From Aptenodytes patagonicus (Eukaryota > Chordata > Aves > Sphenisciformes > Spheniscidae): a DNA stretch of 64,000 nt. Positions within the stretch are counted from its first letter, which is position 1, and each line of letters begins with the position of its first letter. Below, in pieces: positions 30,246 to 57,100 of the stretch. The notes under the pieces were generated by a model that worked only from the letters and a program-made list of their open reading frames with translations, searched no databases and had not been told where the DNA came from. The stretch lies in assembly GCF_965638725.1 (NCBI RefSeq), contig NC_134961.1:3782001-3846000 (forward strand), written 5' to 3'. The position numbers were made by a program, and so were the translations under genes.

Positions 30246-30275
30246 TCACATCCTGGAACCTCGTTCTTGCAAAAT
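30246..30275 (-). CDS. KCTD5: KCTD5 terminal coding exon (ILQERGSRM)
   Basis: After the acceptor tggtctgtttcag the minus strand reads nine codons, ILQERGSRM, and a TGA stop at 30248-30246. This is the usual KCTD5 C-terminus, and the exon joins exon 41875-41750 in phase 0 across 11.5 kb. Confidence 0.95.
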   Translation of the reverse strand: MLQERGSRM

Positions 30276-39200: not shown

Positions 39201-42200
39201 CTTTTTCAAATGTCCTGAAGTGAGCAGATAGAAGCCAACAGTGACATGCAACATAACAATAGGGGCCGTAAATATAGAGAAAATTTAAATAAAACTGTGA
39301 AGCTGGTACCTTAACTCTGTGTACTCTTCACCACGGATGGGAAAGGATAGCACTTGAGAATCTAACTTTGGATGCAGATGTTACGAACAAGCTTTGGTCA
39401 TTTGTCCCAAGAGTGACAGGTCAACAAAGTGGTATGAAAGAGAAGAATACTTGTGGGAATACAGGTTATCCTTCAGTAGTGCCATGGCTACCCGTAAAAG
39501 CTACTGGAACCATTTAAGTCAATATCCCAAATGCCGTTAATTTCCTTCGCTTAGGTGTATTAGAAGGTTACACGGAAGTCATCTACTAACTTACTAAGCA
39601 AACTGTTTTCCAAAAAAAGAAAACACAAGAAAAAAAGTCTCTAAGAGGGAATGAAGGTGAAGCTTGATTAGATCAGCTATCAGAAAATGTTTTTTCCTAT
39701 TCTGAAAGTCCAGTACTATTAAGTAAAATTGAAGTGCTTGGCAATAAAAATTACATATTGGCAGTTTATTGTTTTCTCTAACCCAACCTGCTGTAAAAGT
39801 AATAGGAAGATTTTCTCATGGCTTCTAAAAGTCAGGCCCCAGTACACGAACACATTATTCTGTATATATCACTGGATACCAGAATTTCAATCATATGAAC
39901 TTCATGAAGACCAACTCAGACACTAATGAACAGATTGCAGACTAGAGGATTGACGCTGGCTAAGAGGGAACTATTGAGACAACAGCTCCCACGGTCCAGT
40001 CAAGATTCCTGAACACAGCTGTCAGAAACCTCTCAACCAAAAAGAAATTTTTTGGTTTTTCTTTTTTTTTTCCAGGCACAACTTATACCTATAAAAAATA
40101 ATCGATCTATTAGAAACACAATATATAAAAAATGATTTTTCAAGTATTGCCATTAATTGCTAGCAACAGCTCAACTCTTCCAGGACAAAAGGAGTGAATG
40201 TTTATATCTCCAACCAAAATTAACAGTAATTCTTATTCATCACCCTGGTCAAATTATGCTCTGCTCTCTTCTCTGAAACAGTGACCAAGAAGCACTTCAA
40301 TGGAGATGTCTAAGATTTAGCTTCTCTCAGAGCTACTGAATTTACAGAGTTGTACTGCACTCTGAACTAGCTTTTGTATTTAGGGTTTAACAGTTTCATT
40401 TGATCCATATTTTCTTTTACATTAAGGATGCAATGTAACTCTGGCAACTTCTGAAGTTCCCTGAAGATGTACTACCATTCCTTATGAAGATATTTATTAG
40501 GTTCTAGAATTCCACATTTTATTTCAGGTACATATCTCAGCCCTAAATTATTAGCACACACCTCTTTAACCTGTCAAATTTTAAAGTTTTCCTGAAGCAT
40601 CCTGGCAAAAGCAGACCTTGACTAGGGTTTTGGAAAGAGTGAGCCATGGCTTACCCAGATTCACTGTTTACCCTTGACTACATTAATCCCTTACAACTCT
40701 TTGGAAGTTTTATCTCAACAGTGACAAAAGAGCATAAATTAATCATTTCACTAAGAATCCAACATAAAGCTTGGATTATTTTTATAGTGCAATTTACAAA
40801 AATGTCTCTATATCAGTAGCTGCATAACCAAGTTACAAGGCACAGAAAGTAGTGAAGTTTTATCTATTTGAGGCCTCAGTGCCAAGACCCAGATCAATTC
40901 TTAGCATTATTTCAAAATTAATTTCTTTGAAGGTGATTCTTGAAAAAGCAACCTTTGATGTTTTACCAATTGTTTCCCATCTACGTATACTAAATTAAAA
41001 GCTTTCAGGCCAACTACAGAAGTATCCAGTTTGCCTGTAGTCATCTCCTCATACAAAGCAACAATGCAATGATAAAAACTGTTCAATATGCATGAAAGAA
41101 GAATACACTTACATACATAACCGGTCTGCCTTATTACTATTCAGTTGTGTTTTTACATTTTCCCTTGTACAAACTCTGAAAGACAACTGAGTAAAATGCT
41201 AAGATATTGTTCCCATTACAATCTTTTTGTAAAGCTGGTTACAGAAAGTAAAGAGAACTAGGTAGAAACCTGAAAATATTAAGCTAACAAATACCTTAAT
41301 TTTATAACATATTGCACATGACTATGTTTTTCAGAGACAGCATATTACAATCTCCATTCTTGACAGTAAGATTTCTGCAGTTGAACTCAAGCAAGAAAAA
41401 CGGTTTTCAACTGAATCAGTGACAGAATAAGGAAGCATTCAAATGTGTAAGAAACAAAACCTAGATTCTCAACTGTAAACAGCAAATATCTGCCAATACT
41501 CGAAAAAACAGGACAGGTATCAGGAACAGTACAGAGTATTGCATTTAAAGAACCCATTTGGTATAACAAATGCATGCTGATTGTACCATTTACAGTCTCT
41601 CATACAATGGACAGGGAACCATTACTAGTCATGAGTGAGGGGAAAAAAGGCAATTAAATAATGGTCCAGAACAGAGGTAGGCCTAGCACGACTTAGGGAA
41701 GCGCACCCAATTTGACACCGTTTCTTTAGTCCAGTGTCTAGTAACTTACCTTTGCTTTTTCACTGGGTTCACTGGTTGTGCCATAGGGAGTGTTATGCAA
41801 TTCCTTTGAGACAACACACAGAAATTCAGCCTGATCTTCATTGCCATAGTTATAGGAAGAACCAATACTGACCAGCTGAAAGATTAAAAAAAAAAAAAAA
41901 AAGTCAATTGCATTTCCACATAAAACAAATTCCATAAATTCTCGTCATTAGTACAAACACTCCTTACTCTTCAGACTGTTGGTTGTGCCTGAAGCATGAT
42001 TCTCCACTTCAATGCAAATACATTTTGATGTTGACAAATACAGACACTCTGATGATAAGAAAAACATAGCTTTTCTTTTTAAACATTTACAGAATTAATG
42101 ATTTACGGTTATGATTATACTGTGAAAGAAAAGGCTACAGAGGCAGGCCAGTGGAAAAGTAGCTTGTTCCCTGTTTCTGTTATTTACTGGAAACCTTCCC

Positions 42201-45200
42201 ATCCTCCAAAGTTAATTTTTAAAAAGTTCGTATGTGGTATCTTAATGTGGCATGATTTAATATGTAAATGGCTGCATGCAGGAAGCACTTTAGCCTGAAG
42301 GAATACCCACCGCTTTACTTACAGAATAATGCTACTTCTATTAAAAAATATTTTGAGTAGACAAAGACAAAATTTGCATTTGATTGGAAAACAGCAAGAC
42401 ACAGTATGGTCGGACACCAAGATTAACATCTGAAATTCATATATACTGCTACAAGGAAGTTAATTAAGGAGCGCTACAAGCAGAAGCCATGTATAATGAA
42501 ATGTGACGTATTTACAAGCTTCTACAAGTCTCGGTATTAAATGATAAATTACAATTAACTGAGAAAGAAGGATATACTCAACATAAGTACTACCTCGTAT
42601 GCAGCATGTTTATCAAATGGCAGAAATTTCATGTACCTTGTCTTACCTTACATGCAGTACACACTTACCTAATGCTAGAAGCTTTACATAGCCTGCCTTT
42701 CCAAGTCAGAATGAATTCAGATGTAGCTGGTTCATTTATTTTAAAGGTTTATTTCAAAAGCGTGACAAGATAATGTATGATGCTATTACTACTGACACAG
42801 ATCAAAGTACTAAAAATCAACTTGTTACACAGATACACTGTATCTAAAGATCATTACCAAAACTATAGTAAATCTACCTACCAAATCACCACACACGTGA
42901 TAAGGCTGTCCTAGCCCCCAACCTCTATTATATCATTAAAATGCCCTAGTAGTGGCCCCATAGCAAAGACTTGACTTGTTTTTTAGGGCAACAGCACTTG
43001 AAACACCGTAGTTACCTGTCTAAAAACAAACTGTGTACTGCCATTAGTCTAGCAGAGCACCGAAGAAAGTAAAAGCCTTGTTAAAGCAGTGAAGATGCAG
43101 CCAAGATGAAATCTTGGTCCAGAATCTGTACTTGAAGGATAAGATTATTCCCCCAACAAAAGTGGAAGGTAGACCAAGGTTAAAAGCAGCTTCCATATAG
43201 CACTGTCAGGAGAAAAATAAAGCCTCATCGTATTTTTAAGGAGAGAGAGGAGAGAGATGCTCAGATGTTCCAGCACTGCGGTAAGACAGCCAAACAAGCA
43301 CCTCCATAGACAGACAGAGCCAATGCCTACAAAGAGCAGCAGGCAGTATGTCTGCACAATGAACCAACTTGATGCCAGGCCTAGGCAATGTAAAAGTTTT
43401 TGGACCCTGATGGTATTACAGCATACAAGGCTTAGCCTGCAATGAACAGTACTGGCAATCAAAATTTAGCACTCTCAAACTACCTACTTTAACTACACTG
43501 TCTAGGTGTGATCACCAGAAACCTTTCCGTCCCTCCTCCACTCCTAACATCACTCTAGTTCTGTAAAATACATACATAGTTAGTAATGAACACAGGCTGA
43601 TCAAAAATGAATGTGATAGACATTTTTTCCACCAAAACCATGTAACGATGTTACAAAACCCCACGTTTTTTAGAAGCACCGATATGTCCTCATTGGAATA
43701 AAAAAGCACCATTTATCTTGAGACGTTAAGTCAGATAATCTTTCACAATGGATACTCTGCAGTCTGCACCATAACATATTTTTGTAATATAGTATCACAA
43801 AACCCATAAAGTAACTAGCTGCTTAGTTGCACAAAATGGACTAAGAAAGTCTACTGACAAGCTTGGAAAATCAACCCAGACTTACTTCATATATAGAGAT
43901 GATTTGTTGATTCTCTTCCCTATCAGCAAAAAATATCATGCACAAATTTTCAGGAAAAAAAGCAAAGTTGGCTCTAAGCCTGTTGAAGTGCTTAAAGCAC
44001 TCACAAAAGATAAAGTTTATCCTATATATTATATAGCAATTACAAACCATATAATACAAATACAGTAACTGCTTCAATTATTGAGGTAAAATGTAGGACT
44101 ATTTTAAACAGTATTTTTAACCCACTTAAAGGCTAGAAAATATTAAAAAAAGTTGGATACATGTTTAAATAAACCCACGCATAATTCACCTTCTCTGAAG
44201 AGAAATTTTAAGAATAAAATTCAAGTATATGATTTGATTTAGTACACAGTCAACTCTTCTTCTTGCAAAATGGCAAGAACTTGATATCAGATGAGCTATG
44301 ATGACAACTACCAGAAGGAAAAATACTTCTTTCCTCATTGACGCTCAAAAGAAGTAAACAACCTCTCTGAAAGCAGATATGATACAAGATCCAAACATCA
44401 GCTAAATCATCAATCCTGGTTCAACAAGGTTGATAGGTCCTCAGCTGACAGCTACTTACATCCCCCACTAATGCTTCATAATCCAAATAAGTTGACCTTT
44501 TGCATATAAGTCTTTTTAGGAGATGTGGCAGACTGACTACTTATTAGCTAGTTGGATAGGACTATTGATTAGCTGACTGCAAAACACCTGGATGACTTTT
44601 TGCCATTATTAATCAGCTGGTGCCTTTCAAGATAAAGTCACTTTTGCAACATTAAACAAATTCTTCAAAACTCCAACACATGATACTCTTGTAAGCAGTT
44701 CCATATGTGTGCAACTAAGAATGTATTATTTGCATAGTATCAATAGCATGCTAGAAACTTCATCGTAGCTTTTTGAGATGCATCAGCAGCAATAAAGGTG
44801 ATGGCAGAAAAAGAAACAATGGAAAATGATTGCAGATTAGAACTGAACTGTTCTGTCAGAAAGTATGATCAGATATAAAGCAATATTTTAGCACTTGTAT
44901 TCCAAAAGTCACCCCATTGTTCCCAGCGTTGGTGGCAACGCTTTAAGAAGGATGCTGGTAAACTGGAAGGAATTGTTAAACTCCCCCACCCCGTGTCTGT
45001 CCGTCCGTCCCTGCCCTACAACTCCCCCCCCTCCCCCCCCCCCAAAAAAAAAAAAAAGAACCCACAACAAATCAGAGTAATCTGAGGTCTGCAAAACATG
45101 CATTACAATGCATAGGAAAAGGATTTCAGATTATCCAGCCTACTGTTTCTCAGACTTTCTGAAAGGACCAACTCTTTTTGGCTCATGGGGCTTAAACAGT

Positions 45201-48200
45201 AGAGAGAGTTTTAATGACCAAGAACTTAAGGAAGGAAAAAGAGAACATTCTGAAACTCTGAATTCCATAGATTTGTATGATTACATACGTATGTATACAT
45301 ACATGTATGTATTTTTCCTCATTGTTTTTTTCCTTCCATAACTTGTTTCTTACAGTCCTTACTAAAGCAGTGTGATCCTGCTTGAGCGTCCCTGTGAGCC
45401 CCAACAGTGTCATAATAACCAAGCATAGAAAAATGCCAATGTTACTTATCACAGAAAATTCATTAGATCATGATCCATTCACTGTTTGCATGGAATAAGG
45501 GTGCTGACACTAGTAGGCTGTCAGCTGTAACTAAAAAAGGGAGGAATAGAAAGCATTATTAGCATTATTATTATTAATTAATCAACAGAAATACATTTAT
45601 TTGCATTATATTGCTTGATGTGCCAATACAGGTCAGGATTTTCCTGAAAAGACAAAGAAATAACAATAGGGAAGTTCCTGTCTCATAAAGCCTGAACTTT
45701 TAAGTAAGATAAAAGATGACTATCAGAAAGGGCAAAGTTAAAAAAAACCCAACAGTTTGGCATAAGTAAAGGCAGACAGAGACTACCTGATGCCTAGCTA
45801 CGGTCAGGCTCGTTTTCAAAGAGGAAAGACTTAAGAATGATTTCAGGGAGAATAATGAAGTAACTTTCTGAAGAACTTTTCCTAAGTCTGCAGCTCCGTG
45901 AGAAGATAACTGTGTCTTTCAAAAAAGACTATTTAAGAAAAACAGATGATAAAAGTGATATTGCTGAGAGAATAGATCAAATGATTCCTGCCTGCATCAA
46001 GTTACTCAATGGCAGCAAAATATATGAATCTCTTCCTGTCTTAAATCAATGACTGTACACCTAAAAATATCCCTATGAATAGGCAAAATGGTTGGTGCAT
46101 CACTTTTAGGAACCTTATTTTTGAAGTGAACAAATCTCATGCCTAACTGAATTGAGAGAGATCTCAAAACCAGCCACATTTCAATAACTTGCCTATACAG
46201 ATTTGCTGTACTGGTTTAACAATATTGATTCAGAATCGATACAGCACATTTACAGGACAAATCAGCAATAGTATTACCATTACAGACAACCACTCCAACT
46301 TGCACAAACAGCATCCCTGTCCTTCTCTGCTTCCCACTGAAGTTATTCATATTAACTGACTCTTCTACTTGATGACTACCAATTTCCTTCTCTTTCTGTG
46401 ATGGTCTGATTCTCAAAACTGAGTAAATTTCATAATAATTATTCTCAAATTCTGTTTTAAATATTCTTATACTTTGAATATTACTGCTTCTATTTCAGAT
46501 GTGGTGAACTCCTTGCACACTAGAAAGCTTGTATCTTTTTTTTTTTTTTAATTAGACTATCTAACAGTTGATGGAATAAAAGGAAGTCCTCCCCCCAATT
46601 TTTTTTACAGAATCACGTCGTATGAATGTAAGAATGGCCTCCACACCTTTTAGAGTTATAATGCATTCATTCTGCTGCCTTCTCAAAGGATTTGTAAAAG
46701 GCTATAGATACATACACATCAGCCATTAAACTCAGCACTGATGACTGACACCAGGACCACAAGCATATGTATTTCAGGTCTCTTAATGCAATTGTCAGAC
46801 TTCAAATCTAGGAGGAAGGAAAATTCATTCCCTTCCAGATTGATTTTTTTTAATTTTATACCTGCCTTAATTTCTTCACTGCCTTCCCCCATCTCCCATT
46901 TTATTACATTGAATTTTACTTTGAGCTATCTAGGACATGAACACACAAATAACATCATGCTGCCTGTACCGTACACATCCTTAGTAACAGGCCACATTTC
47001 CTACTCAGTTCCAGAAAGTCTGCAAACCCAGTGCGTTAATTCCACATTCCAAATGTTACCTATACAACTGCAAGAAACAGTGCTTGGTACATTGAAAGCA
47101 GATTCTGGAATATAGCTAGGCAACAGTCCAGGTTTAAAATCTAGAATTGCATGGCTAAGTGTCCATGTAAACTCATAAGCAAGGTTCTGCTCAAATCAAG
47201 TCACTTTACTGATATGTTATCGTCATGATGTTATACTGATCTTTCAGACTGAATAACCATATATATAGCAAGGAAAAGAACGAGTACTCCGAGTATTTTA
47301 CTGATGAAAAATACTACAGAACACCAGGTTCCCAAATCAATTCACGTAAGACACTTCAAAATGGAATACAGCTATGTAAAGAACTGGAAACTGCCTCCAA
47401 TGTTACTGGTTAGCAAAAAATCCCTCCCAAATGCTGGAACACTGGGAAGTAACACAGCAATTAAAAAAGCAGTGACCTGAGGGCGAGGGGAGCAGGAAGG
47501 ATGAGACAGCCCAAAAAGCCAATGAGTGAAGCTATGATTCTTCATTTGGGTTTCAAGAAAATTTCCCAAGGGGGAAAAAAACCAAAACAACAACAAAAAA
47601 AGCAAAAAACCCCCAGGATGTTCTTTCCACTTGAGACAAGATTTAAAACTGCTGGTTTTGTTCTCCCCTCACTCCTCCATATTTTATTTCTGAAAAATTC
47701 TGTTATTTGTTGTTCCAGTTTGAATATATTTCATCCACCTAAAAAAAACAGTTAAGTTCTGAGTTACCAGAAACAAAGGGTTCAAACTCAGAACTTAACT
47801 GGCTATTAGGTGGATGAAATACACTCAGACTGGAACAATGATTAACACAGAAATGTCCCTTTCTGAACCCACTGAACTCAAAGCTTTATTCACAGGGCTC
47901 CTAATGTTTAAATTGTACCACTTTTACTTAACAAGTATGGATCAAAGGCTGTTAACTTTGGAGGAAGATTTAAGGAAAAGAAGTTACCTATTGAGAAGGT
48001 AAGAACTCTTCTTAAGAAAAACCTTTAACTAAATAACTAGGGGTTTTTTGTTTGCTTGTTTGTTTATTATTTTTACAATATGAACATTCATAATGTATAA
48101 TGAAATACTGTGAATATAAATAAAAGCCAGTCACAAATACACACAAATTACTATGTGCTGTACATCCAGGAATAAAGTGGAATGATTCGAAAGCAGAAGA

Positions 48201-51200
48201 AATGCGAGGAGGCCAAGCATATCAGTGTGAGGGCAAAAAGAATGGTGTGACACACCTCACTGCAGCATTTCTGGAAGCATCTCTCTTCCCCTTTCACTTC
48301 CCGTGACACTATCAGCAGATACTCTGACTGCTGGGCCCGGCCACAGCTGTACTGGGAACCTATACTGACAAGCTGAAATAACCAATCAAAGCAAAACACA
48401 AAAAGAAACCTTTGTAAAGCTGAAGCACATACCGTTATCCAAATCGTACAAATAACAGATGAGCTCAAATGTTCAGGTAACATTTACTTGCCACTACAAC
48501 AGGTTGCTATCAAGCTACAACTTTCATTTCAACATACTTAAAAGTTATGGAGGCAGTTGCAAGGCCCTCTGCAATTTCAAGGGAAGTTAAGAGTTACTGG
48601 TAGTAAGTCAGAAAACTCCCCATATCACTGTGGTGTAGCCAACTACTCTGAAAAACATAAACGAAGTTTGGTGCATTATGAAAGTGAGCATTATTTTCCT
48701 GTCATACTTGCCAAGTGCAGAAGGTAACGTGGATATAAAACTGGAAGGTGTTACGTAAAGCAATATATCAAGCCTGGGTATGAAAGAGCTTCATCTTGCT
48801 CCGGATATTGATAAACAAAATACAGCTAAGGAAACTTATGAAGTCAACTAGAGGAAAAAAAGTTGAGTGCTCTAAATTGGTTTTAGAAGGGGTAATTTAC
48901 AGAAGATCCAAGAAAGTAAGTGGAGTGGAAAAAATTGTCTGTCTTGTTCCCATAAAAATCAGTACCAAGAACTCTGTTCACACTTGCCAAACGTCTAATA
49001 ATTCAGAAGTTCAGAACAACCTCAGCTAAACTTCTCAACTTGTTATTACAAAAAATATTTTATCTTAATAACACATGACAATTCCTAGCCCATTTAAATT
49101 AAAGCATAGACTGCCAATGCACTTGAGAAAGATTAGAGCTTTAAATTAAACATGAAGAACTAGACAACAACTGCCTATTCTGAGTAAACTGGAGATTACT
49201 ACTGATGAGAAGGCTCATGAACAGTAAATTTATTTTTATCCTGCTATTGTTATGTGAATAATTTTGAAGGCAGCACCTAAATACCATCCTCCTCATATAG
49301 CGAACATATTTAAGACAGCATTATGGTGACAGACTCAGATCACATTAATCATTCAAATTTACATGACTGACACACCACTGCTGTCTAAAGCCTTTGTATG
49401 TAGCAATTTTGTATAGCCCAAAGTTTCTCATGCAGTATTGCCAAAATATTGTTTTTCCTGATTGCCTGAAGAGGTAACAATTGAAGCTAAAAATCATCTA
49501 CAAAATAACCCACTGAAATCACAAAAGTGGGGCAGCACAACTATTGGCAGTAGTTTTTGGACTGGGACTGATACATAATTGCAGTATTCTAGCAGCGCTT
49601 TCACTTGTATTCTTTGGAAAAATGCATCAATACATCTGCATAAGTGCACCAGAAGTTTAACACCTTTCACTCCTATTTAATCACCACATCCAATTGTATT
49701 TTACAATAACATTTTGAAATGTTATAGGGAGAGAAATATTTTTGATCAAAACCAACCACTTAAACATGTTATATGGGGCACAGAGCACAAGGACGCTCAA
49801 CCCATAGGAATATTACTCCTCTGAAAAAGCTGATGATTTCTATCCCACCAATGATAATATGTACAAAGCATGGTAGGTGCCATCCCAAAGACCGCGTCTG
49901 AAGGAAGCATGCTGCTGAGCAACACAGGTTTAGAAAAAATAAAAAATTACAGAAATGCTACAGCATTCTCAAATCTCAACAATAAAGCTGTTTAGATTAT
50001 ACAGAATATTCTAATCATGTTTCCAGTGATGTTTGCTAAAAGCAGGTCTGCAATGCAACCAAAGGAGAGAATGGCCTAGTCTGAGGTAATGAGAAGCTGA
50101 GTATTATAAGACCATACAGCTGTTGTGTTTATCTACTTCAAACTATGTGTCTAAGAGAGAGCAACATGGGGAAGGGAGGAAGTAGGGAGAAAGCTGGATG
50201 AAACAAGAACATAACATTCAAGAAAACCACTCTAATTTTCCAGTTCTAAAAGAGATTCTAAATTCTAAGAGGTTATAATAGTTCTTTCAGCAGTTGCACT
50301 GTCAAAGCAGTATTACTCCCAAATACAATATCCCCAAAGAATACAAGGCTTTAGGACAGGTAAAAGCCATAGTATCATTTAATCTGTCAAAAAGTAAAGA
50401 ATCTCTATTTGTAATGAAAGCTAGTTTCTCGTGACAAAGAAGAATGCCAAAAAAACTTTGTCATTGCACTGGTCAAAAAACAATCATGTGCATTAAGTGA
50501 GAGCTTTTTTCAGAGACTTAAACAACATTCAGCTTCTGGCATGCCAGACAGACCTGGTAATACTTGAGCTGGAGAACTGAAACGTAAGAAGCTTTCTCTG
50601 TGCTGGTTTAGTTTATTTGATCACAGCTGTCTCCATGACACCAGCACCTTACACATTTCATGGAATATAAACAAAACATTCTCTTTTACCTGTGTGTGCC
50701 GTACTTTTTAAAAATGTTGCTTAGTTGCATTATTAGAGTGAGACTGCACAGGATAAGATAATAATGTGCTTATTCCAATCTCTCCTACAGTTGGCACCAG
50801 ACAGTGAAAAAGATGCTGGCAGCTGAGCACTTGTGTCTCACTCCAGAGTTAACAGATTCATTGCTCCAAAGCAGTTTAAATATTCCGGTAGGTTAGGAAT
50901 GTGAAGGATGAAGAGGCCATGTAGTTAGTTTCTTATTTACAGAGATTAGCAAAGATAACAGAAAGATCTTGCAATTTCACAATGTATTCTTGAATGTACA
51001 CACAAACCTATTTTTATGCAGTGTAAAGAACAAAAACATTCACGTAGCTCACACCTATCCAGCTTCACATCCACACTGGTTAAGTTCACCCTCCTACGTG
51101 CGTCAGAATCATTGTTTGGGCCTGACAAACATTTCTCTCCCAAGCTCATCTCTTTTACCCAGAGCTCTTTATATCTGACCTACCATTTGTATAAACTTGT

Positions 51201-51734
51201 ATTAGTTAATTTTGGTTTATTCACCCTTCAAATGCTCGTGTGTGGACACCGAAGAATTACATTTCAAACATGATGTAGATGTTTTTTTAGAAAGTCAGCA
51301 CAATTTACCTCCTGGGAAGTTAGTTTTTTTGTTGTCTGACAAATAAGAATACAAATATCAAATTTTAACTCAACTGTGTATCTTTATCTATCCAATTTCT
51401 GAAAATGACTGCACTTAAAAAGATGCACAGAATTGACTTTATACTCCTCTTTCACATAACTGAATTTTTAGAAGACTTTGTAATTATATCCCATATGGTT
51501 TTTTTACCTGTTCAAATTTCCAGCCATCAGACATTGTGGAAACCATTTGAGTGAGTTCCTCTTCCTGGCACTGCAGCACCCTGTACACATGTTTGACTGG
51601 CACCTTCAAGAAGAAATACAAGATGCTCAATACAGCATGGAATTCACTATGTTTGTGACTTGTCTAAAGTTGCCCTTATTCTTTACAAATGGTAAGCAAC
51701 GACACCTTGGACACCTTGTCTTTTTTTTCTTTTC

Positions 51735-51766
<32 letters not shown>

Positions 51767-54098
51767 CTCATCTGTTCAGAATCACCTTGCAGAAGACTCA
51801 ATGCTTCATGAATATTTCAGGGACTGAAAGTGCTACTTAACAGTTATAACAAAATAATCTTAAGACTTACCTGTCATTCCATATGGTAGCAAACCACATA
51901 ATTCAAAATGAAGGTTGAGGATCTGCAGAGGCCTACTTAACTTTAAGGAATGTCTGACCATATTCAAAAATGTCTTTATTTCCCTGTTAAAGTTCCCCAT
52001 CCAGAGCAATTAATAACTAGGACCATTGAAGCTGAAACCCTTTAGAAAATGTTATCAGAGCAACTCTGCTATCCCGCAACCCAGCTTCAAGAGAAATTTG
52101 GCAACATGAGTTTGTAGTATCTCCATGAAGACTCAGTTATCAGGGAATGCCAGAGCAGCAGAGTTAAAGAACAAACCTGAATACTTTCTTTACTTAACAG
52201 TTTCTCTATCATATTCACTTTCATGAAGAAATATTCATAAGCTGCTATGAGAAGAGGCAGAGTCTTCTCAACTACAGAGCACTAAAAATAAAGAAACTAA
52301 CCTTGCTACAAAAGCATGACAGGAGCTAAACAGCATCTGTATGTATGCTGTATAAACATACTGTATAAACAGCAGTTATACCATAGTTAGGCAATCTCAT
52401 CATATTCAGAGTATTTAAATGTATGAGAAAAATATATTCTACAAAAGCTGTTTTCTAAAATAACTATTTCCAGAAATGGTATTACGACAAATTCTACTAT
52501 TACCAGACATTTTTGAACAATTCTTCAGAATGTTTTCAGTTTTTGAACAAGAACTAGAACCACATGCCTGTGCTCTTTGTAAGCAAACTGGCAGGTACTG
52601 GCAGTTAAGAATATTAATCTTTGTGTACTAAGGGTTCCAGCTCAGCCAGCGATGGAGGCAGCCATTCAGTATCTTACTGGGGAAATGAGCAGTTAATGAA
52701 AAAAAATGGAACCCACCCACTACTTGCCATAGAACAAATAATCAAAAACACACTAGAAAACAGCCTCACCTGTGAGATCTTGCTGTCTCTTTCTCTTATT
52801 TTGTCCTTTACCAGTTTTATTAGTGATGTGATATTGTAGAATTCAGCCTCTTCCAGTACACCTAGTATAAGAACATTTTTTGGAAAGAGAGTGTAAGCAA
52901 GGATTCCAGGCCAAAAGCACCAACCGGTTCTCTACAATCTTCTCTACAGCTATAGAAAATGATTTATTTTGCCCTAGGAAAAGTTCATTTACCAACCTAA
53001 TGATTCTGGCTTCCTTCAGGCACATGTAGTTTAAAGTCTAGCTCATTCTGAAAAACTGTCCTAAAAAAACCCCAAAGAGAACTGATGCCATTTCACATAT
53101 AGAATGAGAGGCAGGAAACCAAAAAAAGGAGCACAAATGCCATTCCATAGCAGACTGATGAACCACTATAGCTCAGGCCCTGCCTCAGGCTGGAATATGA
53201 AAGAGAAATTCAAATAGTCCTGCTGAAAGGCGCTGCAGCTGCTAGTGTGCAGAAAATTTTTCTTCCTGTCATTTGAGATCTTAGACCCTGAAACAAAAGC
53301 TTCAAGACACATACTACAGACTGCTCCCACTCACATGTTCAAGCCTCACCTGTTCTCCGCACGTACTGTTTAACAATGCACATGGAAATTATATTTCACA
53401 TTATTTCCTGTTAATATTGTTAGACTGTATTTCTCTCTGATCAATTTCTTCAATATCTTATCAATACAGTTTTAGTACTATATGGTTTAAAACAGTCATT
53501 GTCCATTAGGGTAAAATTGATATGAATTGGGGACAGGGAGGAAGAAGCTGGGGGCAGGATTTACTCTTCAAGAGCATAATCCACACATCTGAACATCCCA
53601 GAACTTCACTCTTACTTCGCTTTACATCTTCTAAAGCTTGTTTCACAGCCAGTATTCTTTTTCTTGAAGAGGACTAAACCCAAATATTTCACACAGTCAT
53701 ACAGGAAAGATACAAGATTATATGATAAAAGGCATCTCCCCTCATGTTTGAAGATTTGTGTGCTATTTCTAACTAGGGACGGGGGTTGTGAAATCAGGAA
53801 TCATACTCAAAACACTCAGATAACAGCATATGCTATAACTGCACAATACCCATCAGCTTCTCTTGAAACAGATGGAAATGCTACACTGATTAAGATTTAC
53901 CATCTACGTGTAAGTTACTTTTGGTGACTCAAAAGCAGTGAAAATAATAAGCAAGTGACAAGAAAGCAAGAGATTTAATAACATCTTACCTTCTTCAGCT
54001 AGGTCCTTGTTAATAACCAGTTTTCCATGTCTGAGATAGTTCAGTACTGGCCCAAAGTAGGTCGGGTCTCTGTCTATTAAATAGGCACCTGTTTCATC
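30246..54098 (-). CDS. KCTD5: BTB/POZ protein KCTD5, coding exons 2-6 (5' exon outside window)
   Basis: KCTD5 is a pentameric BTB adaptor for cullin-3 ubiquitin ligases, implicated in turnover of G-protein beta-gamma. Coding exons on the minus strand are 54098-53990, 52861-52770, 51603-51508, 41875-41750 and 30275-30246. Phases are compatible and every border is GT-AG. Together they encode 150 residues from [20 protein letters not shown] to ILQERGSRM. Human KCTD5 has 234 residues and its exon 1 ends just before DETGAY, so about 84 residues with the start of the BTB domain lie beyond base 64000. Exon 2 carries the second half of the BTB fold; later exons form the C-terminal domain ([20 protein letters not shown]). 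The last intron is 11.5 kb and holds four CR1 copies. A duplicate of the penultimate exon lies at 48151-48372. In human, KCTD5 lies over 1 Mb from UBE2I on 16p13.3, so the gene order differs. Confidence 0.96.
30276..31921 (-). other. KCTD5: KCTD5 last intron, 3' part
   Basis: 1.65 kb of AT-rich sequence up to the 5'-truncated CR1. No coding exon or known repeat was recognised. Confidence 0.7.
32460..33731 (+). pseudogene. CR1 ORF2 reverse transcriptase fragment, defective
   Basis: An open stretch of 423 codons covers the reverse transcriptase domain, with the conserved A, B and C motifs including FADD. It is part of a longer frame starting at 31941, broken once by TGA at 32334-32336. It ends prematurely after a frameshift near 33680, whose continuation is in the +1 frame from 33739. 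Decay is mild, so the insertion is relatively recent among avian CR1s. Confidence 0.9.
33739..34125 (+). pseudogene. CR1 ORF2 C-terminal part, out of frame with the upstream part
   Basis: 128 codons with the conserved [14 protein letters not shown], then [11 protein letters not shown], typical of the CR1 ORF2 C-terminus, ending just before the element's 3' UTR. It is separated from the upstream frame by a shift between about 33680 and 33739. Confidence 0.9.
34219..36090 (-). other. KCTD5: KCTD5 last intron, unique sequence between CR1 copies
   Basis: AT-rich intron sequence with an A20 run at 34602-34621. No exon was recognised. Confidence 0.7.
36091..36868 (-). mobile_element. CR1 LINE 3' fragment, reverse orientation
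   Basis: It starts on + with atcacagaatcacc, the complement of the CR1 3' end, and runs through complements of the C-terminal ORF2 motifs (on the minus strand [12 protein letters not shown] and [17 protein letters not shown]), to about the segment upstream of [15 protein letters not shown]. It carries several stops. It is in the same orientation as KCTD5. Confidence 0.93.
37396..37959 (+). mobile_element. CR1 LINE 3' fragment
   Basis: It begins at the segment that corresponds to the end of the reverse transcriptase region (cctgtactcagcactggtga) and continues through [20 protein letters not shown] to the 3' end, gattctatgattctatga. The coding frame is broken near 37736. Confidence 0.93.
38214..38412 (+). 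mobile_element. CR1 LINE 3' end, short fragment
   Basis: Only about 200 bases of the CR1 3' end remain (ggtggtgaggcactgggaca up to ccattctatgattctatgat). The break point upstream is near 38214. Confidence 0.9.
38943..38987 (-). CDS. KCTD5: Possible alternative KCTD5 terminal exon with acidic tail
   Basis: On the minus strand a pyrimidine-rich stretch and gccactcag acceptor open a phase-0 frame [14 protein letters not shown] followed by TAA at 38945-38943. Spliced from exon 41875-41750 it would give a 14-residue acidic tail in place of ILQERGSRM. An AATAAA at 38550-38545 lies about 400 bases on. The match of acceptor and phase could be chance. Confidence 0.25.
   Translation of the reverse strand, partial: SEDEETDYDMNDSD
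38988..41749 (-). other. KCTD5: KCTD5 last intron, 5' part
   Basis: 2.76 kb of AT-rich intron directly downstream of the canonical LVSIGS exon. No transposable element was recognised. The proposed acidic terminal exon lies at its end. Confidence 0.65.
41750..41875 (-). CDS. KCTD5: KCTD5 coding exon 5, canonical LVSIGS exon
   Basis: A 126-base exon in phase 0 at both ends. It encodes [20 protein letters not shown] and [20 protein letters not shown], ending AK. The acceptor follows a long T tract and reads atctttcag; the donor is gtaagt. The sequence matches KCTD5/KCTD2/KCTD17 family C-terminal domains closely. Confidence 0.97.
45024..45057 (+). repeat. Compound poly-C / poly-A tract
   Basis: Eight C, one T, eleven C and fourteen A in a row, directly visible. 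Length is likely polymorphic. Confidence 0.95.
47711..47837. repeat. Imperfect inverted repeat, arms about 53-55 bp, loop about 19 bases
   Basis: The arm 47711-47765 begins tgttccagtttgaatatatt. The arm 47785-47837 is its near-perfect reverse complement, with differences only in two short patches. The whole could fold into a long hairpin in KCTD5 pre-mRNA, 314 bases downstream of the duplicate exon. It may be a tiny non-autonomous DNA element or a local inverted duplication; I do not recognise a family. Confidence 0.9.
48063..48068 (-). terminator. KCTD5: Possible poly(A) signal for the alternative KCTD5 last exon
   Basis: AATAAA on the minus strand about 83 bases after the stop of the duplicate exon. 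The hexamer is common in AT-rich sequence, so this is only supportive. Confidence 0.3.
48151..48372 (-). CDS. KCTD5: Duplicate, divergent copy of the KCTD5 LVSIGS exon; candidate alternative exon
   Basis: On the minus strand an acceptor tgattggttatttcag leads, in phase 0, into [20 protein letters not shown] then [10 protein letters not shown]. It aligns without gaps to the first 26 codons of exon 41875-41750: 14 identical residues and several conservative changes (Phe/Tyr, Val/Ile, Lys/Arg, Leu/Val). Six identical residues use different synonymous codons, which is the mark of coding constraint. If read to its stop (48153-48151) it adds 73 residues ending in a hydrophobic stretch ([18 protein letters not shown]). 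Alternatively a gtgtgt donor after 48256 gives a 117-base, phase-0 exon that could replace the canonical one and splice on to the ILQERGSRM exon. Expression is not shown by sequence. Confidence 0.65.
   Translation of the reverse strand, partial: LVSIGSQYSCGRAQQSEYLLIVSREVKGEERCFQKCCSEVCHTILFALTLICLASSHFFCFRIIPLYSWMYST
48373..51507 (-). other. KCTD5: KCTD5 intron between exon 4 and the duplicate LVSIGS exon
   Basis: 3.1 kb, AT-rich. No other coding exon or repeat family was recognised. Confidence 0.7.
51508..51603 (-). CDS. KCTD5: KCTD5 coding exon 4
   Basis: A 96-base exon in phase 0 at both ends. It encodes [20 protein letters not shown] and [12 protein letters not shown], the start of the C-terminal domain. 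The donor is gtaaaa. It can be joined in frame to either copy of the LVSIGS exon. Confidence 0.97.
51604..52769 (-). other. KCTD5: KCTD5 intron 3
   Basis: 1.17 kb. A T-rich tract on + at 51721-51757 (A-rich on the sense strand) lies about 120 bases upstream of the exon 4 acceptor. Nothing else is notable. Confidence 0.7.
52770..52861 (-). CDS. KCTD5: KCTD5 coding exon 3
   Basis: A 92-base exon that completes a split glycine and encodes [20 protein letters not shown] and [10 protein letters not shown], the end of the BTB domain and the linker. The acceptor is tatactag and the donor gtgagg. Confidence 0.97.
52862..53989 (-). other. KCTD5: KCTD5 intron 2
   Basis: 1.13 kb of AT-rich sequence with no recognised feature. 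Confidence 0.7.
53990..54098 (-). CDS. KCTD5: KCTD5 coding exon 2 (BTB domain, second half)
   Basis: A 109-base exon starting in phase 0 with [20 protein letters not shown], then [16 protein letters not shown], the conserved BTB/T1 segment. The donor is gtaaga. Upstream on the sense strand is an unusually long G/T-rich tract that includes the acceptor. Confidence 0.97.
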
Positions 54099-54102
54099 CT
54101 AC

Positions 54103-54185
54103 ATTAGGGGGAAAAAAAAACAACCAAAAACAAAACAAAAACCCCAAAACACCACAAAAAAAACCCCAAACAAACAAACAAACAA
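54103..54185 (+). repeat. KCTD5: A/C-rich low-complexity tract next to the KCTD5 exon 2 acceptor
   Basis: On + this is a run of A with scattered C (aaaccccaaacaaacaaaca). On the KCTD5 sense strand it is an 80-base G/T tract that leads directly into the taatgtag acceptor of exon 2. Confidence 0.9.
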
Positions 54186-57100
54186 GCCAAAAAAACCCCA
54201 CAATGATTTGAATGTCCAAGCAGGAATGGCAAGCTAATATTCAGCTTGGCATCTAAATAGCAAGCAGGTATTCAGACATAGCCACATCCCTTAAAGCCAA
54301 ATTTATAAAAGACATTAAAAGGAATTCAACAATGTAATTGTAATTGTATCAGACTGATCACTCAACTCAATCATGTACTACACAACTTCTCTTATCTGAC
54401 CAATTCCCCCCAGCCCCTTATCAAAAGATTATCAACATTGTTAGCATGAAAGATCTAAGCACCGAGAACACTGAAAATTAAGGTTAAACATAACAAAAAC
54501 AGGAAACTATCATTTTGTTTGGAAACCTGAAGAATCAGAACAAAGGCTACATTCCAGTGAGGTTCAAATACCAGCTTTTTTTTTTTTTTTTTTAAATTAA
54601 AGGCAAACCAACCTACCTTCTCTTTAACCTCAACACTTTGTTCTAAAAGCTTTTGGTTTTGCCTTAGCTCAGATGTACAAATACTCACAGGGTACTGAGA
54701 ACACCTGTGTACCAAGCAAGGGTTGTATGTGCATCTTCTAAAAAAAAAAGTATACTGAAGATGCAGTTCCCAACTACCTCATGCAGACAAAGAAGGGACA
54801 GATCAAACTAACTGATGCTCAGTTTACTGAACAGAGTACAGCATTTTGTGGAATGCAAAACACAGTTCAAGAAATTCGCCTGCATAGCTGATATTCTTGA
54901 CAAACAGATAAAGAAGCAAAACTGGTATTTCCTACATAATTTAGAGTCTATGTGTGAACCCCTGTGATCAATGCAGTACTGACAATACTTTGTGCTGGCC
55001 AGAGGTCTAAGAAAGATTGATAAGACAGACGTCTAATAGATCCACTGCTCCTTTCTACTATCGAGTGGATCACTGACAGTATTAATCCTTTAGTACCTGG
55101 TTTGGTACTAAAGTTTTGGTGCAATAGATATCCTACAGAAATATACTGGAGACAGGTGGCAGCACCCCAAATACTTTTTTTATTTATTCTTATTTTTAAT
55201 ATTCTAGTAGTTTACAGGAGATACCAAAAAAGTATTACTACCAACAATCCTAGCTAAATTTGAATCACTCTCCCCAAAAACTACATGTGATAGTGATACT
55301 TCTTGTTTCACATGAAAAAAATCCTACTGACCCAATCCTTTGCATTTGGACATTAATGCTGACATGTAAAAGTTTGATTACTGAACTGTGATACCTGAAA
55401 ACTCTCTCTACTTAACAGTATCTAAAGTTCCTAAAATGTTTCATTGGAAAAAAAAATGGTTGATGTATTTTCAGGTACATGGATTTAGTTTCTGAATAAC
55501 TACGCTTGTCTAACCAGCGTTGGTGGAATGTAGAAAGACCACAGCCTGAACTACAAAAAACATAAACATCTTTCTATAATTACAAGCTAAATGCTTTACA
55601 CGCTTAGACACACTGTCATTTTAGAAGAAGTGAAGGGGTGTTATATTTTACATAAAATTAACTGTTCAAGAAACTGCTAATATATTAAAATGTGCTGTCA
55701 GTTAACCTACACTCAGCAGACAGTGCTTGATGAAGTCTAATCACCATTTCTTCTGACCTAAACTTATGGTCTCACAGAAGTGACACTATGCACCAAAAAC
55801 AGTAGATAGATGAAATGCATAAAATGGTATCTTTTTAATGTTTCACATTTGAATATATTTACATTACCAAAACACTTCAAGAATGAACAATCTACAGACA
55901 CAACCCAAAGAAATTAAATTAGCTGACAACTGTATGAATTATAACCTGAAAAGTATTATTTAATACAGGAATGGAAACCAGTGAAGTTGGAAAGGAAGAT
56001 TAAAACTGATAAAAAGAAACACTGTTTTAAAGAAAAAAAGCAGTCTTTGGTCATCAGTTGAACTGAATTAAGAAACATAGGGGCTTACAAAACTGGAATT
56101 CCTCCCAGTTAAGGGAAATAAGTCTCTAGAAACAAGCTTCTTCAATAAGGTTATTGTATTCTTTTACACTACAGTGTTTTCTCACATCACCCTCTGAAGC
56201 AATACTGGCCACCAGCTCTACACCATTAGAGACAGGTGGGTCACAGAAGCAAAGTAACTAAAAGCTCTAAATGAAATCTCAAGTAACAATGGTTACTTCA
56301 CTCCTTACACAAAAGGCCACAAAATTTTTATTTTTTTTTTTTTACAGACTACAGTATCTGACATTACTCTTAACTGAGTAGATTTCTATATACTAAACAG
56401 GCTTCCAATAAAAACACAAAGGGAACAAGCTATGTCAGGCCTTCTCTTTCAACTTCTACCTAATGAGAGGTCACCAGCAACCTGCATTGCCTGAATTCAT
56501 TAGCGTAGCATGCACATCAGAGCTTATTATTAGCACTTGTACCAAACATGCTTTACACATACTGACAGCATCCACTCTGTGAAACATAACATAGGTAGAA
56601 GACAAAAGCAATTCTATTATTAACCATTTTCCTCATCATCCACAAACTTTTTTCCCATTGTTGTTCCTCATCTCACTTTTTTCCCCGTTATACTCATTCC
56701 TTTCCTAACCACTATCAAGTTTTCTTCCTCACCAAATTACCATTTAGAATCTATAAAAATGCTTAATCTTCACACTGATAAATACAAATATCATACCAAA
56801 CATATGTATAATATACCACATATGAATAAAGTGCCATCTCACTAGTGTCATAGTTTACTCTATGAAGCCTTTCAGGCAACAACGTGTCTCCAAAAAATAA
56901 TAAAAAAGAAGAAAAAGGAACCCAAAAGTCTTATAATTTATGGTATAATAGTAACTTTTTTCCTTTTTTACATTAGTTAATATCAATAGTTAAAGTTTAA
57001 GAACTCTGGCTAAATTCTAACAGTGAGCAATCCAAATTCTGTCAACAGGATTCACTTTAGTATGTAAATTCCATGCAAAATTATAAATAGACTGAACAAC

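Follow-up and report, generated by a model that had tools for sequence, protein, structure and literature searches.

A candidate second exon 5 in intron 4 of the Aptenodytes patagonicus KCTD5 gene

An exon 5 duplicate inside intron 4

The window analysed here, a 64-kb stretch of Aptenodytes patagonicus DNA, carries on its minus strand what looks like an intact KCTD5 gene. Like Insomniac, its orthologue in the fly, KCTD5 serves as an adaptor of the CUL3 ubiquitin ligase, and the two proteins are linked to G-protein signalling, motor function, and sleep. The exons lie at 53990..54098 (exon 2), 52770..52861 (exon 3), 51508..51603 (exon 4, ending with CAG/GTAAAA at 51508), and 41750..41875 (exon 5, 126 nt), and the coding end of exon 6, ILQERGSRM followed by a stop codon, lies at 30246..30275. 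It was found that intron 4 contains, on the same strand, a stretch of 26 codons (48295..48372) aligning without gaps to codons 1-26 of the canonical exon 5. The two share 14 identical residues, six of them with a changed codon (L, I, S, Y, E, and V) and eight with the same codon. The nucleotide differences at codon positions 1, 2, and 3 number 8, 8, and 13, and the DNA identity is 62.8%. Thus, the in-phase, gap-free copy with six synonymous codon changes that a first-pass annotation had described was recovered. The same annotation called most of the replacements conservative, which was too strong, since only six of the 12 have a positive BLOSUM62 score, while three score zero and three are negative.

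A tblastn search of the window with exon 5 returned exon 5 itself (E 4.8e-26), the copy (4.7e-6), and a next best match at 0.91. A chance similarity inside the intron might be suspected from an alignment spanning just 26 codons, but it is extremely improbable given the gap between these E values and the sharing of strand, intron border, and phase. On this evidence, the copy arose by an old tandem duplication of exon 5 and not by chance. When the copy peptide was searched against the 1.35-Gb genome, five matches were found at E up to 10, namely the copy itself (4e-19), exon 5 of KCTD2 (0.19), KCTD5 (0.87), and KCTD17 (2.5), and a site on a further contig, C4 (3.8); the two paralogous loci are taken to be KCTD2 and KCTD17. 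A peptide resembling an antisense CR1 repeat fits the avian origin of the DNA, as does the genome size. In addition, 38 of the 39 codons of the copy (its extent is discussed below) match the KCTD5 structure chain 3drx_A at positions 152-178 (E 0.014), and only KCTD5 chains were matched by the copy at E up to 10. Neither the copy alone nor exon 5 alone matched a Pfam family. A repeat origin of the copy was rejected, because the DNA at 48000-48520, the copy with its flanks, occurs once in the genome search.

The divergence between the copy and exon 5 is uneven, with 29 of 78 nucleotides differing in codons 1-26 and 29 of 39 in codons 27-39, and the latter codons have no detectable kinship with exon 5. 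The similarity of the exon 5 tail to the sequence downstream of the copy was not significant (P 0.37), nor was that of the upstream flanks of the two exons over 40, 60, 100, or 200 nt (P 0.15-0.42). With no kinship detected in codons 27-39 or in the sequence beyond, an indel or a breakpoint there could go unnoticed. Is the duplication older than the KCTD2/5/17 split? This was tried via the paralogues, and no similar copy was found in about 20 kb around each of the KCTD2 and KCTD17 genes; the best matches of the copy peptide other than exon 5 had E 0.095 (KCTD2) and 0.35 (KCTD17), and neither lies in intron 4. Duplicates of KCTD5 exons 2, 3, and 4 were searched for in the window plus 20 kb, where none was better than E 0.12, and no RNA family reached its gathering score in 41000-52000.

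Exon boundaries and splice sites

The copy starts at 48372 directly after the AG of the acceptor ...TTATTTCAG (48373..48391), in the same phase as the canonical exon 5, which supports the old duplication proposed at first, with a usable acceptor. By consensus scores whose weights and background frequencies were not fitted to data, this acceptor takes rank 59 among the 619 AG sites of intron 4; the acceptors of exons 2, 4, and 5 score higher and that of exon 3 lower. The 3′ end had been placed at the TAG at 48151, which is probably wrong, because an in-phase donor, GAG/GTGTGT (48250..48258), was overlooked. This donor ranks third of the 616 GT sites in intron 4 and gives an exon of 117 nt (48256..48372, minus strand; 39 codons, phase 0-0, no stop codon), so that 48256 is most likely the 3′ end. 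Judged by these consensus weights alone, the acceptor and the donor are both usable. The lengths of the copy (117 nt) and exon 5 (126 nt) are divisible by 3 and each exon is phase 0-0, so the reading frame survives the skipping or inclusion of either. A purine-rich run (22 of 23 nt, 48280..48302, codons 24-31) is possibly a splicing enhancer.

If the donor at 48256 were unused, the read-through at 48151..48255 would be part of an alternative last exon, running from the acceptor at 48372 to the TAG at 48151 and polyadenylated after AATAAA (48063..48068); the protein would then have a hydrophobic C-terminus and lack exon 6. The frame is indeed open down to 48151 (110 codons from 48483), and the AATAAA lies about 80 nt past the stop codon. 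However, the intron contains 10 AATAAA motifs, GC falls to 0.45 past the donor, and the extension shows no kinship to KCTD5. Above all, a strong in-phase donor would go ignored, and because of this donor a terminal exon is ranked below an internal one and considered unlikely.

I searched for acceptor-donor pairs that lie 60-250 nt apart and enclose an open, in-frame stretch, with the thresholds set at the copy's own scores. The 9.6-kb intron has one such pair, the copy. On the minus strand of the whole window there are five (the copy, exon 5, 37548-37441, and the overlapping 33840-33694 and 33816-33694), and on the plus strand one. Similarity, an open frame, and an acceptor were the grounds on which the copy had been picked; of its features, the donor and the GC content alone are independent of this choice. 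Homology to a neighboring exon was found, as in tandem-duplicated alternative exons, and so were the shared phase, a length divisible by 3, and an open frame, provided that the donor is at 48256. Neither a broken frame nor broken splice sites, the marks of a decayed copy, were found.

Decay or retention of the copy

The copy was at first called coding-constrained, its substitution pattern being taken as that of an exon kept by selection. This is unproven. In a codon model, omega on the copy branch was 0.32, which is not significantly below 1 (2 dlnL 2.28 with 26 codons and 0.88 with 39 codons). The synonymous changes were rejected as a proof of selection, since exon 5 is itself strongly constrained and drifts silently on its own branch, so that such differences are expected even with a dead copy. 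It is thus quite possible, if not the favored case, that exon 5 was duplicated once and the copy has since drifted neutrally and unused, its frame and splice sites persisting by luck. An omega of 1 is not rejected, the differences of 8, 8, and 13 would fit decay on one branch with silent drift on the other, and the tail of the copy retains no similarity to exon 5.

Neutral simulations were matched to the DNA divergence under three silent-drift assumptions, without indels. The proportion of runs reaching at least 14 identities was 1.3%, 25%, and 82%, and that reaching the BLOSUM score of the copy was 0.03%, 6.5%, and 50%. With saturated silent drift, therefore, the protein similarity of a dead copy is ordinary (P 0.50), and the 39-codon open frame is kept in 38% of the runs. 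In contrast, the acceptor, the open frame, and the strong in-phase donor were jointly kept in only 0.21%, 0.51%, and 1.28% of the runs (20,000 per assumption), and a contrast between head and tail as large as that of the copy appeared in at most 0.13% of the uniform-decay runs, again without indels. This whole anatomy argues for the retention of the copy, at least under the decay modeled here. It is a better guide to a candidate exon than synonymous changes against a constrained partner, which mislead.

The base composition was also assessed. The GC content of the copy is 0.53 (GC3 0.62) against an intron mean of 0.364, a value reached by 0.97% of 9215 windows, and so has not drifted to the intron level as might be expected of a relic. 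As a proof of retention this is weakened, since descent from a very GC-rich exon would make such a value ordinary (P up to 0.39).

A candidate alternative exon and its counterparts

The copy is probably, although with considerable room for doubt, an old exon 5 duplicate kept as an alternative internal exon, either a cassette or mutually exclusive with exon 5. The in-phase donor, the unusual GC content, the finding of no second copy, and the improbable survival of the anatomy in a dead copy support this beyond what was noted at first. Counting against a retained exon are the rank of the acceptor, only 59/619, the fit of the protein pattern to decay if silent drift has gone far (P 0.50), the omega value not significantly below 1, the undetected kinship of codons 27-39 with exon 5, and the finding of no similar copy in the KCTD2 and KCTD17 regions searched.

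From the sequence, I infer splicing of the copy, its mutual exclusion with exon 5, and altered substrate binding. If exon 4 were spliced to the copy and on to exon 6, the C-terminal domain, which binds the substrate, would have a different end. Codons 1-26 would retain the pattern seen in the folded part, and the wholly different tail from codon 27 onward may let the CUL3 adaptor hold its substrates differently. The uneven divergence of head and tail agrees with a folded part that is retained and a tail that is free to change. In one report, the KCTD5 tail is described as unresolved in crystals, and the 25 residues at the C-terminus of the orthologue in the fly as contributing to activity (PMC11790235). 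The similarity between the copy and exon 5 appears to stop near the border of this tail, as placed on exon 5 by an alignment made here. As a tentative extension, some cells of this lineage may splice in a hidden second exon 5 in place of the canonical one. A loop and the flexible substrate-holding tail would then be exchanged within the same fold, so that one CUL3 adaptor gene would yield two ligases with different targets. If such an isoform is natural, with the change confined to the end of the substrate-binding domain, it would uncouple substrate choice from folding.

As a candidate, the copy would belong with the tandem-duplicated alternative exons. A partner similarity of 54% is low for mutually exclusive exons of this kind. 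Exon 5 of SNAP25 is a tandem-duplicated, mutually exclusive pair in vertebrates, and the likeness lies in an adjacent copy within one gene (PMC2581893). Set beside that class, the KCTD5 copy has a phase common to both exons and a length divisible by 3. Unlike such pairs, it is a candidate seen in genomic sequence and has its 54% over 26 codons and none after; the 6.4 kb from its donor to the acceptor of exon 5 is a further difference. In KCTD17, which belongs to the KCTD2/5/17 clade, splicing yields alternative C-termini, and different partners are expected by the authors; the passages on these C-termini do not present them as copies of exon 5, unlike the KCTD5 copy, and cloning from mouse brain gave a single KCTD5 transcript, which counts against an alternative exon (PMC5469494). 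In the ASCOT study, an unannotated "novel exon" of mouse Kctd5 was tested by RT-PCR (PMC6952364). Because its forward primer resembles, by my own reading, the end of exon 5, that exon probably lies downstream of exon 5 and not in intron 4.

A duplicate of exon 5 in intron 4 of KCTD5

The KCTD5 gene looks intact. In the window (C13:3782001-3846000 of the 1.35-Gb genome), the minus strand carries exons 2 (54098-53990), 3 (52861-52770), 4 (51603-51508) and 5 (41875-41750), as well as the coding end of exon 6 (30275-30246); exon 1 lies about 0.4 kb outside it. Solved KCTD5 chains match exon 5 across all 42 codons (best E 6.7e-24). An imperfect, A-rich tandem array (54112-54197) adjoins the exon 2 acceptor, giving a long T-rich tract on the minus strand.

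In intron 4, a copy of exon 5 starts at 48372, directly after TTATTTCAG. The first-pass annotation had described an ungapped alignment of 26 codons to exon 5, with 14 identical residues and an acceptor at its start, and this was confirmed. Over codons 1-26, the DNA identity is 62.8%, and the BLOSUM62 score is positive at 20 of the 26 positions. In a tblastn search of the window with exon 5, the copy was detected with an E value of 4.7e-6, and the following match had 0.91. Given this E value, the strand, intron and phase of the copy and its start exactly at the acceptor, its homology to exon 5 is taken as shown.

The DNA at 48000-48520 occurs once in the whole genome, where the copy peptide matches itself, exon 5 of KCTD5, KCTD2 and KCTD17, and a weak fifth sequence (E 3.8). 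Around the loci taken to be the paralogues KCTD2 and KCTD17 (about 20 kb each), no second copy was found, the peptide matching solely their own exon 5 at E < 0.09. Thus, the duplication would either postdate the split of the KCTD2, KCTD5 and KCTD17 genes or have been lost from KCTD2 and KCTD17.

Borders and splice sites

Where does the exon end? It had been drawn as running to a TAG at 48151, which is probably wrong: an in-phase candidate donor, GAG|GTGTGT, lies at 48256, 117 nt past the acceptor, and ranks third among the 616 GT sites of intron 4. With one set of unfitted consensus weights used for all KCTD5 sites, this donor scores 9.3, compared with 6.9, 10.2, 12.9 and 11.8 for those of exons 4, 2, 3 and 5. 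By the same weights, the acceptor reaches 5.8 (59th among the 619 AG sites of intron 4), which is above that of exon 3 (0.5) and below those of exons 5 (8.4), 4 (9.1) and 2 (9.9). The two sites define a 117-nt exon of 39 codons with phase 0-0, as in exon 5. When open, in-frame acceptor-donor pairs reaching the copy's own scores were counted, the copy was the only one in intron 4, and the window had five on the minus strand (canonical exon 5 included) and one on the plus strand. A weaker donor 5 nt upstream would break the frame if used. An AATAAA, as a terminal exon would require, is present at 48068; intron 4 has 10 in total. As judged from its sequence, the copy is a genuine and old duplicate of KCTD5 exon 5, ready for splicing, with corrected borders most likely at 48372-48256. 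Tandem-duplicated exons are well known as a kind.

An open frame with splice sites on its flanks also exists at 33840-33694 (minus strand). Its peptide resembles the antisense of CR1, a retroelement frequent in birds, and the frame is probably a repeat.

Retention or decay of the copy

Has the copy been kept by selection? The first-pass annotation had taken its synonymous changes and conservative replacements as signs of selection. This argument does not decide the question: exon 5 itself is constrained, and because it is held to its protein sequence, synonymous differences accumulate on its branch even if the copy is dead. Neutral simulations were matched on divergence (27-31 differences per 78 nt) and differed in how many ancestral silent choices were redrawn: none, half of them or all (3790, 3741 and 2922 runs kept). 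Of these runs, 0.03%, 6.5% and 49.7% attained at least the observed BLOSUM score of 73, and 1.3%, 24.9% and 81.6% attained at least 14 identities. In a four-sequence codon model, the omega (dN/dS-type ratio) of the copy is 0.32 for codons 1-26 and 0.33 for codons 1-39, neither differing significantly from 1 (2 dlnL 2.28 and 0.88); for codons 27-39 alone, the estimate hit the upper bound of 10.

The neutral decay of the exon's anatomy was simulated under three settings, with 20,000 indel-free runs apiece. The acceptor was kept jointly with the open frame and with an in-phase donor as strong as that of the copy in 0.21%, 0.51% and 1.28% of the runs, and these together with the protein similarity in 0, 0.035% and 0.5%. 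Neither these figures nor those on GC and divergence below amount to a formal test, as the finding was preselected on similarity, frame and acceptor, the runs lack indels and the splice weights are unfitted consensus values. Since the anatomy taken as a whole seldom survives neutral decay, I lean toward a copy that has been kept; a dead copy seems less likely.

The GC content of the copy is 0.53 (GC3 0.62), a level attained by 0.97% of 9215 segments of the same length (117 nt) in intron 4, whose mean is 0.364; this signal drops to P 0.16-0.39 when an ancestral exon GC3 of 0.9 is assumed. In codons 24-31, 22 of 23 consecutive nt are purines, and intron 4 has one other such cluster. The divergence from exon 5 is uneven, with 29 of 78 nt differing in codons 1-26 and 29 of 39 nt in codons 27-39; a tail this diverged appeared in at most 0.13% of indel-free uniform-decay runs. 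This pattern would follow if the fold was kept and the tail left free. A duplication breakpoint or an indel, of neither of which a trace was found, would explain it as well.

Predicted isoform and neighbouring features

KCTD5 is reported to bind G-beta-gamma through its C-terminal domain (PMC13361646). In Insomniac, the fly orthologue, rescue is still normal when the exposed loop N167-Y168-G169 is changed to alanine, and the last 25 residues, whose counterpart in KCTD5 is unresolved in crystals, contribute to activity (PMC11790235). By my own alignment, the loop corresponds to exon 5 codons 9-11 (NYG in exon 5, SCG in the copy), and the crystal-unresolved tail starts near codon 27, the point at which the copy stops resembling exon 5. 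Since the Insomniac loop mutant rescues and the last 25 residues matter, the loop change may be of little consequence, and swapping the copy for exon 5 would mainly provide a new tail. An arginine reported there as vital (PMC11790235) appears, by residue count, to fall in exon 4 and would thus be common to both forms.

In the titles, abstract starts and some passages of the papers listed on KCTD5 exons, isoforms, splicing and birds, no description of the copy was found; annotation databases of animal genomes may already carry it as a predicted isoform. RT-PCR of mouse brain is reported to have given a single KCTD5 transcript (PMC5469494), and ASCOT has primers for a novel exon of mouse Kctd5 (PMC6952364). 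The latter exon is not the copy, because its forward primer, by my reading, resembles the end of exon 5. Downstream of exon 5, the side on which the ASCOT exon must lie, intron 5 has an in-frame acceptor-donor pair matching the quality of the copy (37548-37441, minus strand; GC 0.55) and encoding a proline-rich peptide.

Some 420 nt past the donor of the copy, intron 4 contains a hairpin (47710-47838, minus strand) whose roughly 49 base pairs are nearly all matched, the inner 17 being perfect. The folding energy of the segment 47690-47860 is -79.9 kcal/mol (z -13.5 against 200 shuffles), and that of its opposite strand is -79.0. No repeat family is evident, because the genome search gave a single occurrence (the other listed match being its own opposite strand) and Rfam gave no match. 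The hairpin may represent an ancient palindromic transposon, or it may influence splicing.
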